A stretch of 53,676 nucleotides of DNA from the NCBI GenBank assembly GCA_963170165.1, contig CAUJGQ010000112.1, positions 1-53,676 on the forward strand. The letters run 5' to 3'. Source of the stretch: Chloroflexota bacterium (GTDB lineage: Bacteria > Chloroflexota > Dehalococcoidia > CAUJGQ01). Positions 7,637 through 53,676 of this stretch are shown here, piece after piece. The notes below the pieces were generated by a model that was given only the letters and a program-made list of their open reading frames with translations, was not told the origin of the DNA and searched no databases. A program made the translations under genes and the position numbers. Position 1 is the stretch's first letter. The number at the start of each line of letters is the position of its first letter.

Positions 7637-9076
7637 ATGGCAGCGCGGACCGGGGCGGCGTATCTGGCGGGACTGCGCGATAGCCGTGAGGTGTGGCTCA
7701 ACGGCGTGCGGGTCACCGATGTCACGGCACACCCATCGCTGGCCGCTGCCGCCCGCTCCATCGCTGGCCTGTACGATCTCCAGCTCGAAGCCGGAGGCGT
7801 CTGCCTGGCGGCCGACCCCGTAACCGGCGAACTGGTCAACATCAGCCTGATTACCCCCCGCTCGCGCTTCGATCTGCATCGCCGCCATGTCGCGCTCGAA
7901 CGGCTGGCGCGCTACAGCGCCGGCCTGCTTGGCCGCAGTCCGGATTACGTCAACGTCACGCTGGCAGGCTTTGCCGGGCAGCGGCAGCTGTGGGCGGCCA
8001 ACGGCAACGAACAAGGCGCGGCGAACCTGGTCGCCTTCCACCGCGAGGTGCAAAGCCGGGACCTGGCCCTGACGCACGCCATTATTCACCCCGTCGTCGA
8101 TCGGGCCATGCCGGAGCACCTGGCCGGCGGCGGCGAGGTGGTGTTGCACAAGGCCGGCGAGACCGCGGACGGGATAATCGTGCGCGGCGCGCGGGCACTG
8201 GCCACGCTGGCGCCGTTTGCCGATGAGATGTTTGTCTATCCCGGCCAGCCGCTACCCAAAGACGCTACCTCCTATGCGCTTGCCTTCTCGATTCCGATGT
8301 CCACACCCGGGCTGCGCATCCTGTGCCGCGACAGCTTCGCCGCCGCCGGCAGCATCAGTGACCATCCCTTCTCCGGTCGCTTCGATGAGCAGGACGCGGT
8401 GGTGATTTTCGATGACGTGGTGGTGCCGCGCCACCGCGTGTTCCTCGATGGCGAGCCAGAGATCTACAACAAGGTGATGGCATCCGGCTGGGCGGCAAAC
8501 ATCATGCAGCAAACCAGCATCCGCGCCCAGGTGAAGCTCCAGTTCGCCTACGAGCTCGCGACGCGCATGGTGCAGGTGGTCAATGGTGGCAATCCCGCGA
8601 CGAATGAGATGCTGGGGGAGCTGTGGAGCTACCACGAGTTGACGCGGGCGGCCGTGGTTGCCGCCGAAGCTGAAGCGCGCGACTATGGTGACGGCGTGTG
8701 GTTCCCGGATGAGCGCCCCTTCCGTGCCCTGCGGCCGGCGCTGCCGAGGTGGTTCCCGCGCGTCAACGAGATTATCACGCTGCTGGGCTCACACAACCTG
8801 CTGGCCACGCCGCACAGCGCAGAGCTGGCCCATCCCGACCTGCGCCCGCTGATTGACCGTTACTACCAGGGCGCCGGGAACGTGAGCGCGGCGGAGCGCA
8901 TCCGCGTCTTCCGCGCGGCCTGGGACTTTTCCGGCACGGGCATGGCCGGACGCAATGAGCTGTACGAGCGCTTCTACCTGGCGTCCGCCGCACGCATGTA
9001 CCAGGTCGCCCACGCCAGCGCTCAGCGTGATGGCAATTGGGACCTGTTTGATTCGGTCATACCTCCTGCCAGCTAG
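7637..9076 (+). CDS. HpaB-family flavin-dependent hydroxylase (4-hydroxyphenylacetate 3-monooxygenase-like)
   Basis: A 479-residue protein of the HpaB/PvcC/4-hydroxybutyryl-CoA dehydratase fold. Recognisable regions are the N-terminal YLAGLRDSREVWLNGVRV, a mid-protein FAIS-type strand AFSIPMSTPGLRILCRDSF at about residue 218, DEQDAVVIFDDVVVPRHRVF at about 250, and HNLLATPHSAELAHPDLRP at about 387. Family members use FADH2 from a separate reductase to ortho-hydroxylate phenols; no reductase gene (hpaC) lies nearby. ATG at 7637 follows GGGAGGTG with six bases spacing. The exact substrate is not evident. It appears to be a single-gene unit with its own RBS after the metK stem-loop. Confidence 0.85.
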   Translation: MAARTGAAYLAGLRDSREVWLNGVRVTDVTAHPSLAAAARSIAGLYDLQLEAGGVCLAADPVTGELVNISLITPRSRFDLHRRHVALERLARYSAGLLGRSPDYVNVTLAGFAGQRQLWAANGNEQGAANLVAFHREVQSRDLALTHAIIHPVVDRAMPEHLAGGGEVVLHKAGETADGIIVRGARALATLAPFADEMFVYPGQPLPKDATSYALAFSIPMSTPGLRILCRDSFAAAGSISDHPFSGRFDEQDAVVIFDDVVVPRHRVFLDGEPEIYNKVMASGWAANIMQQTSIRAQVKLQFAYELATRMVQVVNGGNPATNEMLGELWSYHELTRAAVVAAEAEARDYGDGVWFPDERPFRALRPALPRWFPRVNEIITLLGSHNLLATPHSAELAHPDLRPLIDRYYQGAGNVSAAERIRVFRAAWDFSGTGMAGRNELYERFYLASAARMYQVAHASAQRDGNWDLFDSVIPPAS

Positions 9077-45250: not shown

Positions 45251-46138
45251 ATGACCGAACGCGACACCGTGCCTGAGCTACCGCCGCAGGCCCGCAGCGA
45301 GTGGCGCACTCCCGCGAACGGAGCTCTGCCGCTGCCGGAGGCCACCGCGCCGGTCGACGACCACGCCCTGTCCGGCGAGCCGGAGCGCCCGCTGAGCCTG
45401 CGCCCGCGCGTGGCGGAGCCGGAGCCCGAGCCGCTGCCGGACCAGGGCTCTGCCGCCTATGTGAAGGCGTGGGACGCGGTGGCGCCGGTGGCCGGCCACG
45501 GGACGAAGGTACGGCATAGCCGGCTGCTGTTCGCCCGTGAGCTGGTCGAGACGGCCATTTTGGCGGTAGCGATCTTTCTGGCCGTGCGGGCGGTGGTCCA
45601 GAACTTCCGCGTGGAAGGACAGAGCATGGACCCCACGTACGCCACCGGGCAGTACGTGCTGGTGAACAAGCTGCTGTACCAGAAGCTCGACTTCGGCCCG
45701 TTTGGCGGAGAACGGCGGCTGTTCCACGCGCCGCGGCGGGGTGAGGTGATTGTCTTCCACCCGCCGTTGCCAGAGCTGCCCAACCAGGGTGGCGAACGCG
45801 ATTTCATCAAACGCGTGATCGGTATCCCCGGCGACCACGTCGTGATCAAGGACGGCAAGATCACCGTCAACGGCCAGGAGCTGCAGGAGCCGTACCTCAA
45901 GAACGCCGTGCAGACCTTCTGCGGCGGTCAGTACTGCGATGCGCAACTGCAGCAGAACCAGTACTTCGTGATGGGTGACAACCGCACCAACAGCTCCGAC
46001 TCCCGCCTGTGGGGCCCGGTGAGCGGTGAGAAGATCATCGGCAAGGCGTGGTTTGTCTACCTGCCATTCGATGACTTCGGCCCTGCCCCCAACGGCACTC
46101 CCATTCTCAGCCCCACCCGCGCCACCGCGCGCCCGTAG
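45251..46138 (+). CDS. lepB: signal peptidase I
   Basis: A 295-residue membrane-bound serine protease that cleaves Sec and Tat signal peptides on the outer face of the cytoplasmic membrane. A long Pro/Glu-rich cytoplasmic N-terminus (about 1-95) precedes one membrane segment (ETAILAVAIFLAVRAVVQNF, about 100-119). The catalytic Ser is S125 in EGQSMDPTY, the general base Lys is K187 in RDFIKRVIGIPGD, and GDNRTNSSDSR near 240 is box E. No Shine-Dalgarno precedes the ATG. The TAG stop (46136-46138) lies inside the first bases of tRNA-Lys. Confidence 0.94.
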   Translation: MTERDTVPELPPQARSEWRTPANGALPLPEATAPVDDHALSGEPERPLSLRPRVAEPEPEPLPDQGSAAYVKAWDAVAPVAGHGTKVRHSRLLFARELVETAILAVAIFLAVRAVVQNFRVEGQSMDPTYATGQYVLVNKLLYQKLDFGPFGGERRLFHAPRRGEVIVFHPPLPELPNQGGERDFIKRVIGIPGDHVVIKDGKITVNGQELQEPYLKNAVQTFCGGQYCDAQLQQNQYFVMGDNRTNSSDSRLWGPVSGEKIIGKAWFVYLPFDDFGPAPNGTPILSPTRATARP

Positions 46139-46200
46139 CTCAACGGTAGAGCAGTGGACTTTTAATCCATTGGTTGTAGGTTCGAATCCTACCGGGCGCA
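46129..46200 (+). tRNA. tRNA-Lys (anticodon UUU)
   Basis: A 72-base tRNA without encoded CCA. Acceptor stem GCGCCCG (46129-46135) with CGGGCGC (46193-46199); D-arm GCTC/GAGC (46138-46152); anticodon loop CTTTTAA with anticodon TTT at 46161-46163; T-arm GTAGG-TTCGAAT-CCTAC (46176-46192). The anticodon stem has one G-T pair. Its first ten bases overlap the end of lepB, so the tRNA must be cut from the lepB transcript or made from a separate internal promoter. Confidence 0.95.
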
Positions 46201-50158: not shown

Positions 50159-50189
50159 TTGACAGCGTGCTAAGCACTTCGCGTATTAT
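50159..50189 (+). promoter_or_regulatory. promoter of the RiPP radical-SAM operon
   Basis: TTGACA (50159-50164) and TATTAT (50184-50189) are separated by 19 bases, longer than the ideal 17. The start of transcription would be near 50196 and the RBS GGGGAGG (50213-50219) begins about 17 bases later. A second possible -10, TACACT (50113-50118), lies upstream. The 19-base spacer may imply dependence on a regulator. Confidence 0.65.
50167..50177 (+). promoter_or_regulatory. candidate operator, palindrome in the promoter spacer
   Basis: GTGCTAAGCAC is an 11-base inverted repeat with a single central base. It lies exactly between -35 and -10. A dimeric regulator bound there would block or reorient RNA polymerase. 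No regulator gene lies in the visible part of the locus. Confidence 0.45.
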
Positions 50190-50224
50190 GGCGTGCCTCG
50201 TGTCCGCTCCCCGGGGAGGTAGCC

Positions 50225-52108
50225 GTGGCTGCTCCCGCGCCGCTGTCACCGCCGAGCAACGCCGGCGCGGATTTCCGCGTGGCGCTGGTGTGCCTGCCCT
50301 GGTACACCGCGGGACGGCCCTCCATCCAGATTGGGCTGGTGGGCGCCATCGCCCGGCAGGCCGGCTTTCCCACCGATCTGTATCACCTCAACCTCGACCT
50401 GGCGGCCCGTACCGGCCCTGCTATCTACGAGGCGCTGTGCAATCACCGCGGTCACCTGACCGGCGACTGGCTATTCTCGGTGGCCGCCTTCGGTGAGGAG
50501 GCGCACAGCGATGATGCCGCCTACTTCGCCGCGTTCGGTGAGGAGATCCGGGAAATCGGCGCGGCGATTGACGAACCGCCGGCCTACCTCTCCCGGCTGC
50601 GGCACGACATCTTGCCGCAGTTCATCGACGATTGCCTGGCGGCGGTGGACTGGGGGCGGTACCGGGTGGTGGGGTTCAGCTCCACCTTTCAGCAGAACGT
50701 CGCCTGTCTGGCGCTGGCCCGCCGGATCAAAGGCACGTACCCGGATACGGTGATCGTCTTTGGCGGCGCCAACATGGAAGACGAGATGGGTCCGGGCTAC
50801 GCCCGCGCCTTCACATTTGTCGATTATGTGCTGTCCGGCGAGGCGGACGAGAGTTTCCCGGCGCTGCTGCGCTGCCTGGCCGCCGGACAAGAGGCGCCGG
50901 AGATTCCCGGCCTTGCCCTGCGGACAGCCGGTGGTGTGCGCTCCTGCGGTCAAGCCCCACCCGTGCGCGATCTCGACGAGCTGCCCGTGCCGGATTACCG
51001 CGAGTACTTCGCCCGCCGCGACGCACAGGGGCTGCAAGCCGCCTATCCCCACCCGGTGCTGCCGTTCGAAAGCTCACGCGGTTGCTGGTGGGGCGCCAAG
51101 CACCACTGTAGCTTCTGCGGACTGAACGACCTGATCATGCCGTACCGCGCCAAGCGGCCCGAGCGCGTGCTGGCGGAGCTGACCGAGCTGGCCGCCCGCC
51201 ATGGCAGCACCTTCTTCGCCGCCTCAGACAACATCCTGGACATGAAGCACCTCCAGCAGGTGCTGCCACGCATCGCGGAAGCGCACGCCGATTTCCAGTT
51301 CTTCTACGAAGTGAAGGCAAACCTGACGCGCGAGCAGATTCGCACCCTGGCCCGCGGTGGGGTGCGCTGGATCCAGGCCGGTATCGAGAGCGTCAACACT
51401 AACCTGCTGCGCCTGATGAACAAGGGCTCCAGCATGCTGCAAAATGTGCTGCTGCTGAAGTGGGCGCGCTACTACGGCATCCACGTAAGCTGGAACATCC
51501 TCTGGGGCTTTCCCGGCGAGACAGAAGCTGACTATCAGGAGCAACTGGCGGTACTGCAGCTGATCCCGCATCTGGAACCGCCCAACCACGCCGGCCGCAT
51601 CCGCCTGGAGCGGTTCTCCCCCTACTTCACCGGCAGGGCGGCCGGTACGCCCGTAGAGGTCCGGCCCGACGCCTCGTACGCCTACGTCTATCCAGGGCAT
51701 GTGCCGCCGGCGCAGGTGGCCTACTTCTTCGAATACGCCATGGATGGCACCGTCCCGGACGAGTCGAACGCGGAGACGGTGGCGTGGGTGGCGGAGTGGG
51801 AGCGGCGCTGGTTCTCGGAGCGGCCGGACACGCTGTCCTATCGCAAGTCGCTCGACCGGCTGTTCATCGACGATCATCGCGGCGCGGCGCCGGGTCAGAC
51901 CTATACGCTCACCGGCCCCGCGGCGCCGCTGTATGAGTACTGCGGCGAAGCGCCGCGCACCGTGCCCGCCATCATCAGCCACCTCGACGGGACAGTCTCA
52001 GCGGAGACGGTCTCGCGGCTGCTACGCGAGCTGTCCGCGCGCGGTCTCATGCTGCAGGAGGGTGGCCGGCATCTCAGCCTGGCGCTGCCGGCTAATCCCG
52101 GCTGGTGA
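50225..52108 (+). CDS. RiPP-maturation radical-SAM enzyme (B12-binding-like N-terminus, CX7CX2C)
   Basis: A 627-residue enzyme resembling the RiPP-maturation radical-SAM family 1 (rSAM_ocin type). Residues about 17-200 look like a B12-binding Rossmann domain (VALVCLPWYTAGRPSIQIGL; VVGFSSTFQQN; VIVFGGANMEDEMGPG), without a visible DxHxxG. The [4Fe-4S] motif is C287-x7-C295-x2-C298, in SRGCWWGAKHHCSFCG, instead of CX3CX2C. GIESVNTNLLRLMNKGSS and WNILWGFPGETEADY follow in the barrel. Residues about 555-627 resemble a small winged-helix/PqqD-like leader-binding domain. GTG 50225 follows GGGGAGG. The enzyme probably modifies one or both precursors encoded just downstream; the reaction is unknown. 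Confidence 0.88.
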   Translation: MAAPAPLSPPSNAGADFRVALVCLPWYTAGRPSIQIGLVGAIARQAGFPTDLYHLNLDLAARTGPAIYEALCNHRGHLTGDWLFSVAAFGEEAHSDDAAYFAAFGEEIREIGAAIDEPPAYLSRLRHDILPQFIDDCLAAVDWGRYRVVGFSSTFQQNVACLALARRIKGTYPDTVIVFGGANMEDEMGPGYARAFTFVDYVLSGEADESFPALLRCLAAGQEAPEIPGLALRTAGGVRSCGQAPPVRDLDELPVPDYREYFARRDAQGLQAAYPHPVLPFESSRGCWWGAKHHCSFCGLNDLIMPYRAKRPERVLAELTELAARHGSTFFAASDNILDMKHLQQVLPRIAEAHADFQFFYEVKANLTREQIRTLARGGVRWIQAGIESVNTNLLRLMNKGSSMLQNVLLLKWARYYGIHVSWNILWGFPGETEADYQEQLAVLQLIPHLEPPNHAGRIRLERFSPYFTGRAAGTPVEVRPDASYAYVYPGHVPPAQVAYFFEYAMDGTVPDESNAETVAWVAEWERRWFSERPDTLSYRKSLDRLFIDDHRGAAPGQTYTLTGPAAPLYEYCGEAPRTVPAIISHLDGTVSAETVSRLLRELSARGLMLQEGGRHLSLALPANPGW

Positions 52109-52134
52109 TCAGCCAGGCGGCAACGTAGCGTCTC

Positions 52135-52198
52135 CGCCCCGCACGCTGGGGCGCGCAACCTGGTTCACGGCCACCGGCAGGCGGGACGGTTCCCCGCC
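52135..52198 (+). other. two intercistronic hairpins before precursor 1
   Basis: CGCCCC (52135-52140) pairs with GGGGCG (52148-52153), and GGCGGG (52180-52185) with CCCGCC (52193-52198). They lie between the enzyme stop and the precursor RBS and may stabilise a processed precursor mRNA. No internal promoter is obvious here. Confidence 0.4.
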
Positions 52199-52230
52199 GT
52201 TCACCAACAGCATCACAAGGAGGTATGTCT

Positions 52231-52524
52231 TTGGCATCGTTAGACGATCTGCCCAAGATCCTGGCAGAGAACCCACAGGCGCGCGAGGAGTTGATGTCGT
52301 TGCTCTCTGGCTTCTGCCAGCGCTACGGGGTCGAGCTGAACACTCAGGACGCCACGCAAGTGGACAACGACGAAGTGCGCGGGTACATCCTCGGCGCTCC
52401 GTCGCTGGGGAGCCAGCCCGCCCTTGGCCGCCAGCCAAACATCGGGGCACTGCGCCCGGGTGGTGGGGTCGCGCTCATTTACGACGTCACCGGCTCGGGC
52501 ACCAGCCGCACCTTCTGGATCTAG
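52231..52524 (+). CDS. RiPP precursor peptide 1
   Basis: A 97-residue precursor. The leader (about 1-60) is helical-looking and acidic: ASLDDLPKILAENPQAREEL, then LNTQDATQVDNDEVRGYILG. A variable, Pro/Gly-rich linker (61-77) separates it from a conserved end: GGVALIYD, V, TGSGT, S, RTFWI. The only Cys is in the leader (residue 29). The TTG at 52231 is chosen because AAGGAGGT (52217-52224) is six bases away; an ATG at 52225 abuts the ribosome site and would add MS. The paralogue has the same TTG and spacing. Core residues may be 80-97 if cut after the Gly-Gly. Confidence 0.85.
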   Translation: MASLDDLPKILAENPQAREELMSLLSGFCQRYGVELNTQDATQVDNDEVRGYILGAPSLGSQPALGRQPNIGALRPGGGVALIYDVTGSGTSRTFWI

Positions 52525-52531
52525 TTCGCGA

Positions 52532-52545
52532 CGGGTTGCGACCCG
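52532..52545 (+). other. tetraloop hairpin between the two precursor genes
   Basis: CGGGT (52532-52536) pairs with ACCCG (52541-52545) around a TGCG loop, eight bases past the first precursor stop and just before the second RBS (GGAGGT 52550-52555). It may tune the ratio of the two products or protect the upstream mRNA end. Confidence 0.4.
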
Positions 52546-52561
52546 CCACGGAGGTGCTCTC

Positions 52562-52855
52562 TTGGCCTCAATCGATGATCTGCCCAAGATCCTGGCAGAG
52601 AACCCGCAGGCGCGTGAGGACCTGATCACCTTGCTGACGGAGTTCTGCGCACGGCATGGGATCGAGCTGAACACCCAGGACGCCACGCAAGTGGACAACG
52701 AGGAGGTACGCGGGTACATCCTCGGCGCTCCGTCGTTGGGGGGCCTGCCCGCCCTTGGCAAGCCGCAGGCCCTGCCCGGCGCACGCCTGCCGGGCGGTGT
52801 CGCGCTGATCTACGACTCCACCGGCTCAGGTACCGGCCGGACTTTCTGGATCTAG
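52562..52855 (+). CDS. RiPP precursor peptide 2
   Basis: A 97-residue paralogue of the upstream precursor, same length without gaps: ASIDDLPKILAENPQARED leader, LNTQDATQVDNEEVRGYILGA, a different linker (GLPALGKPQALPGARLP), and the conserved end GGVALIYD, S, TGSGT, G, RTFWI. GGAGGT (52550-52555) lies six bases before the TTG at 52562, and no ATG or GTG near by is in frame, which confirms TTG as start of both genes. Core Ser/Thr, Tyr, Trp and Phe are the likely modification sites, since there is no Cys in the core. Confidence 0.85.
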   Translation: MASIDDLPKILAENPQAREDLITLLTEFCARHGIELNTQDATQVDNEEVRGYILGAPSLGGLPALGKPQALPGARLPGGVALIYDSTGSGTGRTFWI

Positions 52856-52859
52856 TTCA

Positions 52860-52889
52860 TCCCCCGCCGGTGGCCGTGCGGCCGGGGGA
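52860..52889 (+). terminator. attenuator-like hairpin between precursor 2 and the second radical-SAM gene
   Basis: TCCCCC (52860-52865) pairs with GGGGGA (52884-52889), and inside it GCCG/CGGC extend the stem with a one-base bulge. There is no T-run. A partial terminator after precursor genes is common in RiPP loci, as it keeps peptide mRNA in excess over the enzyme mRNA. Confidence 0.5.
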
Positions 52890-52901
52890 ACGAGTACGCC
52901 G

Positions 52902-53676
52902 ATGCCGTTCTTTCACCTCAACCTTCAGATCACACAGCAATGCCCGTTGGAGTGCGCGCATTGCTGCATCGAGTCCGGACCCTGGCGGACCGAGAGCATG
53001 GCGCTGCCTGATGCCGTGTCCTATGTCCGCCAGGCGCACGCGATCAACCCAGCCACCGTGCTCAGCTTCACCGGTGGGGAGCCGTTCGTTCGCTTTCCGC
53101 TGATGCGTGACATCGCCCGTGCGGCGGACGAGCTCGGCATGTGGCACACGACGATCACCAGCGCCGTCTGGTGCAAGTCGGTGGCCTTCGCCCGGGAGCG
53201 GCTGGCGGAGCTTCAGCGCTACGGGCTGCGCACCGTCAACCTCAGCTATGACTCGTTCCACGAGCCGTGGGTGACGCCTGAGCGCATGCAGCACTGCATC
53301 ACCGCCGCCGCGGACCTGGGGCTGCGCATTCACGTCGGCGGCGCCGTGGTTTCTGGGTCGAAAGGCGCGCGCGAGCTGTTGGGGAGCTGGCTGGACCGGT
53401 TCCCGCAGGTGGAGAGCGCAGATTGGGGCGTGGCTCCCAACGGCCGCGGCGCTCTGATTCCGGCCGAGCGGATCCTGTTTCAAGAGGCGCCACATCTGGA
53501 AGCCACCTGCCCGATGGCATCAGAGCTGTTGATCGAGCCGGACGGGACGGCGTATCCCTGCTGTACTACCGGTGGCGATTACGCCTTCCTGCGCCTGGGC
53601 AATGCCCGCCTCACCCCGCTGGCCGAGCTGCGCGCCCACGCCGAGCGCCAGTCCTGGTTTCGCATCATCGTCCGCG
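52902..53676 (+). CDS. second radical-SAM enzyme, SPASM-like C-terminal cysteines (partial, no stop in window)
   Basis: The visible 258 codons encode a canonical radical-SAM barrel: C14-x3-C18-x2-C21 in QCPLECAHCC, the SAM-binding FTGGEPFVRFP at about residue 54, and TVNLSYDSFHEPWVTPERM at about 113-131. Near 208-230 there are further Cys (ATCPM, and YPCCTTGGDY after LLIEPDGTA), which look like the beginning of a SPASM/twitch auxiliary cluster domain. The gene runs off the right edge. The RBS is weak (GGGGGAA), after a hairpin. It lies 46 bases after precursor 2, so it is very likely a second tailoring enzyme. Confidence 0.85.
   Translation, partial: MPFFHLNLQITQQCPLECAHCCIESGPWRTESMALPDAVSYVRQAHAINPATVLSFTGGEPFVRFPLMRDIARAADELGMWHTTITSAVWCKSVAFARERLAELQRYGLRTVNLSYDSFHEPWVTPERMQHCITAAADLGLRIHVGGAVVSGSKGARELLGSWLDRFPQVESADWGVAPNGRGALIPAERILFQEAPHLEATCPMASELLIEPDGTAYPCCTTGGDYAFLRLGNARLTPLAELRAHAERQSWFRIIVR

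Follow-up and report, generated by a model that had tools for sequence, protein, structure and literature searches.

A radical-SAM operon with twin precursor genes in a Dehalococcoidia bacterium, predicted to make a C-methylated and epimerized peptide

Results

Two tandem precursor genes lie among four radical-SAM genes

We analyzed contig CAUJGQ010000112.1 (hereafter C112) from the 4.41-Mb assembly GCA_963170165.1 of a Chloroflexota bacterium (class Dehalococcoidia); the whole contig, 53,676 nucleotides (nt), is the window. Four genes on the + strand occupy its final 3.5 kb: one for a B12-type radical-SAM (S-adenosylmethionine) enzyme, two small ones, and the 5′ part of another radical-SAM gene. 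An earlier note, made from the sequence without database searches, had read this end as a two-enzyme locus for a ribosomally synthesized and post-translationally modified peptide (RiPP). The genes that it described are all present: a B12-like enzyme with a CX7CX2C motif (50225–52108), two tandem 97-residue precursors (A, 52231–52524; B, 52562–52855; both +), and an enzyme of the SPASM type with a CX3CX2C motif, which begins at 52902 and runs off the contig at 53676. They share one direction and are tightly spaced, with gaps of 122, 37, and 46 nt in that order.

The count of two enzymes did not survive the rightward extension that the same note had proposed. The last 75 bases of the window (53602–53676) recur exactly at one end of the 4725-bp contig C151 (4725–4651 in our extract L007) and match no other contig of the assembly. 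The frame of the SPASM gene (SPASM 1) stays open across the join and yields a protein of 338 residues, the first 258 encoded in the window and the rest on the complement of C151 (to 4409). C151 further supplies a second SPASM gene (SPASM 2, about 4380–3361) and a second B12 radical-SAM gene (copy 2, 3364–1484); in the sequence, the latter is coupled to SPASM 2 through an overlapping ATGA. The operon order is B12 enzyme copy 1, precursor A, precursor B, SPASM 1, SPASM 2, B12 enzyme copy 2; as read from the joined contigs, the unit is four radical-SAM enzymes and two precursors.

The precursors have a conserved leader and core and a free linker

Each precursor starts with TTG, 7 nt after a Shine-Dalgarno sequence (AGGAGG/GGAGG). 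An in-frame ATG at 52225 lies only one base from the Shine-Dalgarno sequence of precursor A and is too close; the TTG starts are preferred, hence the length of 97 residues for both proteins. Precursor B is 74% identical to A, and their near-identical cores of 18–20 residues, GGVALIYDVTGSGTSRTFWI in A and GGVALIYDSTGSGTGRTFWI in B, share the consensus GGVALIYD[V/S]TGSGT[S/G]RTFWI, of which the GGVALIYD and RTFWI parts are identical. Identity is distributed unevenly: 50/60 over residues 1–60, 5/17 over residues 61–77, and 18/20 over residues 78–97. At the nucleotide level, 64 of 291 bases differ, 34 of them at third positions. The ratio of nonsynonymous to synonymous divergence (dN/dS) between A and B is 0.094/0.54 (about 0.17) for the leader and 0.072/0.79 (about 0.09) for the core, and the third-position GC content of the precursors is that of the neighboring genes. 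By these sequence comparisons, purifying selection acts on leader and core and the linker is free, the pattern expected of RiPPs.

The earlier note had described the core as cysteine-free, with few Ser/Thr in a lanthionine-like arrangement. It does lack Cys, but one Cys stands in the leader and the core has several Thr and Ser residues; Y, F, and W are retained in both copies, and the opening GG is a possible cleavage site. The precursors matched no NCBIfam model at E 0.01 and no Pfam model at E 0.1, and Pfam searched at E up to 10 returned a chance-level match only. They thus matched none of the known leader families (Nif11, NHLP, and others), including the NHLP leader that proteusins would have. 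The core has no Cys thioether donor, as sactipeptides and ranthipeptides would need.

The B12 enzymes are divergent members of the TIGR03975 family

Copy 1 (627 residues) has a GTG start preceded by GGGGAGG and carries the CX7CX2C cluster motif as CWWGAKHHCSFC. It scored 656.7 bits against TIGR03975 and copy 2 (about 626–644 residues) scored 662 bits, both more than twofold above the curated cut-off of 281.85 bits; on these scores, the family match is not a chance one. ApyD, another RiPP family of B12-type radical-SAM enzymes, was the second-best model for copy 1, with TIGR03975 ahead by more than 550 bits, and PF02310 gave 24.6 bits, under its own cut-off. An AlphaFold2 model of copy 1 (mean confidence score, pLDDT, 89.8) has TsrM, OxsB, TokK, CysS, and MgmA as its nearest structures; in this model the enzyme has a B12-binding Rossmann domain and a radical-SAM core, a fold like that of class B B12 radical-SAM methyltransferases.

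In a tree of 38 TIGR03975 members, copy 1 clusters with sequences from Sphingomonas and another bacterium (support 100/96), and copy 2 is placed in a separate clade (98/71). The tree thus assigns the two enzymes to different subclades, with no recent duplication, from which we infer two different methylation duties. Relatives are annotated as C-methyltransferases. One from S. clavuligerus, 36% identical, adjoins a DUF5825 gene; clavusporins are reported to be C-methylated by a B12 radical-SAM/DUF5825 pair (PMC12257519), and by analogy the S. clavuligerus locus would be that pair. Our enzymes have in common with the clavusporin type the full-length family match, the CX7CX2C motif, the class B fold, and a C-terminal winged helix. 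Unlike that type, they come as two divergent copies in one operon, with a different precursor leader, and no DUF5825 partner was found, a search for which the control genomes gave no match either. We consider C-methylation of the product likely.

The winged helix comprises the C-terminal 95 residues of copy 1 (51821–52105, + strand; pLDDT 93.5). Its best VIA match was the lasso-peptide RiPP recognition element (RRE) TbiB1 with its leader (Z 9.0, rmsd 2.1 over 75 residues), and PqqD was the commonest Pfam match among relatives (4/17, best E 0.0025). A hidden Markov model (HMM) of the domain searched against the PDB found nothing useful for RRE identification, and Foldseek returned generic winged helices only (E >= 0.02). 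The domain is probably an RRE-like leader-binding domain, as predicted from the model; this function is likely rather than firm because the TbiB1 match exceeds those of unrelated winged helices by no more than one Z unit.

The SPASM enzymes are closest to the peptide epimerase EpeE

SPASM 1 (52902–53676, + strand, in the window) carries the cluster motif CPLECAHC (CX3CX2C; C14/C18/C21) and is 60% identical to SPASM 2 over the full length. Both scored best against TIGR04078 (YydG), with 92.3 bits for SPASM 1 and 109.2 bits for SPASM 2, the next-best model reaching about 40. The models of cross-linking SPASM enzymes all fell well short of this (about 40 bits for PqqE and about 32 for StsB), and among epimerase-type models YydG was best, with no PoyD model singled out. 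The curated TIGR04078 cut-off is 300 bits, so that, of the family comparisons suggested by the earlier note, the one with TIGR03975 passed its threshold and the SPASM one gave a best model below it. SPASM 1 matches the EpeE structure 8ai1 (E 5e-12), and the alignment of SPASM 2 with EpeE structures spans its whole length (E 3.8e-20). The PCC motif is retained, its CC pair being C220/C221 in SPASM 1. Cys223 of EpeE is the proposed hydrogen donor (PMC8326336), and by position its counterpart would lie in this CC pair.

The resemblance to the epipeptide systems yydFG/epeXE thus includes an EpeE-nearest SPASM enzyme over its whole length, the CX3CX2C and PCC motifs, and a precursor upstream of the enzyme. 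Unlike those systems, the locus has two SPASM copies, both under the TIGR04078 cut-off; its 97-residue precursors are dissimilar to YydF (~50 residues), and it has none of the peptidase/ABC genes of the Macrococcus epipeptide locus. On this sequence evidence, we lean narrowly towards an epimerized product. The earlier note had recognized no known class in the locus; that holds for the precursors, which match no family model, but the enzymes indicate known C-methylation and probably epimerization.

Relatives of the enzymes adjoin other precursors

The window precursor was found neither in 400 genomes of the phylum (HMM search) nor at 80 TIGR03975 loci from GTDB (tblastn), nor in the plasmids or viral contigs searched. 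The earlier note had named a lack of homologous precursors in other genomes as grounds for rejecting its reading; for this precursor, that lack was literally what the searches gave, but it is weak evidence because other TIGR03975 genes adjoin unrelated precursors, and because a SPASM relative in another genome of the phylum (G286) follows an Os1348-type precursor. Likewise, 13 back-translated pattern matches to the window-type SPASM enzyme in GTDB contigs gave 0 confirmed cases, a weak negative given the strict patterns. The combination of enzymes and the precursor itself both appear undescribed in the genomes searched, the kinds of enzyme being already known.

The G286 protein is the nearest SPASM relative found (161 bits, 30–32% identical to the SPASM pair). 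Its locus (L135, contig C222, 1922–4061, + strand) comprises a 76-residue precursor that scores 45.5 bits against the Os1348 NHLP model (cut-off 40) and whose C-terminal part is rich in I, T, V, and F; the EpeE-like gene directly 3′ of it; and a cyclic-nucleotide-binding gene with a weak bacteriocin-transport match, after which the contig ends. As in our locus, the enzyme lies directly downstream of a precursor, which favors a RiPP function for this group of SPASM enzymes; unlike our locus, G286 has a known leader family, a single SPASM enzyme, and no TIGR03975 member over the cut-off in its genome. SPASM relatives in two genomes of the same class (G443 and G657) had no precursor seen adjoining. 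A further relative, 30% identical to the SPASM pair, lies in a type III-B CRISPR neighborhood on an Allochromatium plasmid (L031, 6977–8002). A SPASM match beside TIGR03975 in L111 was set aside as a different, remote radical-SAM protein.

Among TIGR03975 loci elsewhere, Nif11 leaders stand beside the enzyme in two Chloroflexi, of which the one tested scores 29.8 bits against Pfam Nif11; an ITxxDI-type leader adjoins it in several actinobacteria and at a second locus of the source genome. The family is also widespread in Nitrospira and Nitrospina with no evident precursor (L073 and similar); at several of these loci the upstream gene resembles, by eye, a pterin carbinolamine dehydratase.

That second RiPP-like locus (L008, contig C29, 4783–10333, – strand) encodes a TIGR03975 enzyme (644 bits), two tandem precursors of ~100 residues (8022–8327 and 7660–7962; cores ending GVSIVVGVMF and GVSVVVGVGVMF), and two cytochrome P450s. 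It shares with the window locus the TIGR03975 enzyme and the tandem precursors, which have a similar mid-region [DE]VxGY motif; unlike it, the C29 locus has two P450s in place of the SPASM enzymes, and leader and core differ. Homology between the two precursor pairs is not claimed: a two-sequence BLAST gave E 5e-4, but hhalign gave a probability of 2.5% and HMM searches with C29-based profiles E 0.67–1.8, and low E-values for the window precursors in one profile search were circular and were discounted. An orphan precursor-like open reading frame of 104 residues (L133, contig C52, 7725–8039, – strand) has a mid-region like that of the C29 precursors (EDEAALLW..VQRAAAAGEPDVQGYYQGFGSQP) and no adjoining radical-SAM gene.

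Surroundings of the operon

A putative promoter, TTGACA-N19-TATTAT, was read by eye ahead of the operon (50159–50189, + strand); a promoter scan limited to 16–18-nt spacers does not list it, its spacer being 19 nt. LemA and DUF2207 genes lie upstream. The next 4.6 kb revealed none of the peptidase, exporter, and regulator that the earlier note had placed, if there were any, beyond 53676; in that stretch a nagA-type deacetylase gene, 3′ of B12 enzyme copy 2, and an aminotransferase-like fragment are convergent with the operon. Subtilases are present in the genome but unlinked to the locus, and no protease was assigned. Elsewhere in the window are a 5′-truncated tmRNA (1–140), a SAM riboswitch (830–951, 80.8 bits), and a tRNA (46129–46200).

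Discussion

The locus is very probably a RiPP biosynthetic locus: leader and core are conserved around a free linker, the precursors sit between the enzymes, and in G286 an EpeE-like enzyme adjoins a precursor. The radical-SAM RiPP pathway suggested earlier is borne out by the TIGR03975 and SPASM assignments together with the selection pattern of the precursors. We consider it fairly probable that the operon modifies a Cys-free core by C-methylation at two kinds of site and by epimerization. Gene content and order, the family relations, and the selection on the precursors are direct observations; each reaction, its sites, the sequence of steps, and the point of cleavage are deduced. Several findings weigh against this. 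Both SPASM scores are only about one third of the TIGR04078 cut-off, a failed threshold. The CC pair is also kept in SPASM relatives from non-RiPP settings (CRISPR, plasmid), so the motif is not diagnostic of epimerases. At the position of EpeE Asp210, the residue altered in 8ai6 (numbering deduced from the offset of the PDB chain), SPASM 1 has Glu, as does Macrococcus YydG; SPASM 2 has Gln there, and the G286 enzyme has Ala. The C112/C151 join is an assembly overlap with a continuous frame, not a read-through. Neither exporter nor peptidase was found at the locus, and no Peptidase_C39, an exporter peptidase, was found in the genome. Across the 80 further TIGR03975 loci, neither the window-type precursor nor a SPASM enzyme clearly related to this pair was seen. 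Finally, TIGR03975 calls were excluded in one study as likely false RiPP positives (PMC9426513); the twin precursor argues against such a false call here.

Within the same RiPP operon, the SPASM pair might instead cross-link the core, for example through aromatic C–C or C–X bonds via Y, F, or W, with no D-residues. Cross-linking is the activity of most peptide SPASM enzymes, the three aromatic residues are kept in both precursors, and the sub-threshold YydG score and the loss of the Asp210 position in SPASM 2 and G286 fit this proposal. We nevertheless regard it as unlikely, since models of cross-linking SPASM enzymes score far below YydG, a Cys-free core precludes a thioether, and the PCC motif is retained. 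It is quite improbable that the B12 enzymes perform chemistry other than methylation, as does the o-Tyr cross-linking B12 radical-SAM enzyme PbsB. Cross-linking has been reported for B12 radical-SAM enzymes of RiPP clusters (PMC12257519), and ApyD is the runner-up model for copy 1; against this stand the lead of TIGR03975, the annotation of the relatives as C-methyltransferases, reported as such for clavusporin, and the locus itself, where no MNIO, arginase, or partner gene was seen.

Least of all do we expect that no RiPP is made, the small genes encoding a conserved small protein and the radical-SAM enzymes serving some other metabolism. Many TIGR03975 loci, for example in Nitrospira, have no evident precursor, and the want of an exporter or protease and of any family match for the precursors is in keeping with this. 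Such a protein would hardly account for a leader–linker–core selection pattern with GGVALIYD and RTFWI identical, for genes lodged between the enzymes, or for an EpeE-like enzyme next to a recognized precursor in G286.

Under the favored reading of methylation plus epimerization, the leader that both precursors share would serve for binding, the probable binding partner being the winged helix at the C terminus of the B12 enzymes. These enzymes would methylate the core at two kinds of position, on unactivated carbons for which V, I, L, and T are the candidate residues. The EpeE-like enzymes would abstract a Cα hydrogen and return a hydrogen from a protein Cys of the CC pair, converting chosen L-residues (V, I) to D. 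A protease encoded outside the cluster would then remove the leader, perhaps by cutting at or close to the GG that precedes VALIYD.

Proteusins (polytheonamide, nostatin) would share the union of epimerization and B12-dependent C-methylation on one core; unlike them, this locus has no NHLP leader. Our best reading by analogy is a polytheonamide-like chemistry that would draw on EpeE-type instead of PoyD-type epimerases. More tentatively, the locus may stand for a RiPP class with an undescribed leader, in which four radical-SAM enzymes of two families make a multiply C-methylated peptide with D-residues, polytheonamide-like and independently assembled from EpeE-type and TIGR03975 enzymes. Descriptions of EpeE-type epimerases come from small epipeptide clusters; those of B12 C-methyltransferases come from proteusins and clavusporins. 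If the reading is true, the operon would be a small, expressible system that places D-residues and C-methyl groups on the same peptide, and it would test the function of EpeE-type enzymes beyond epipeptides and the reason for keeping two divergent methyltransferases together.

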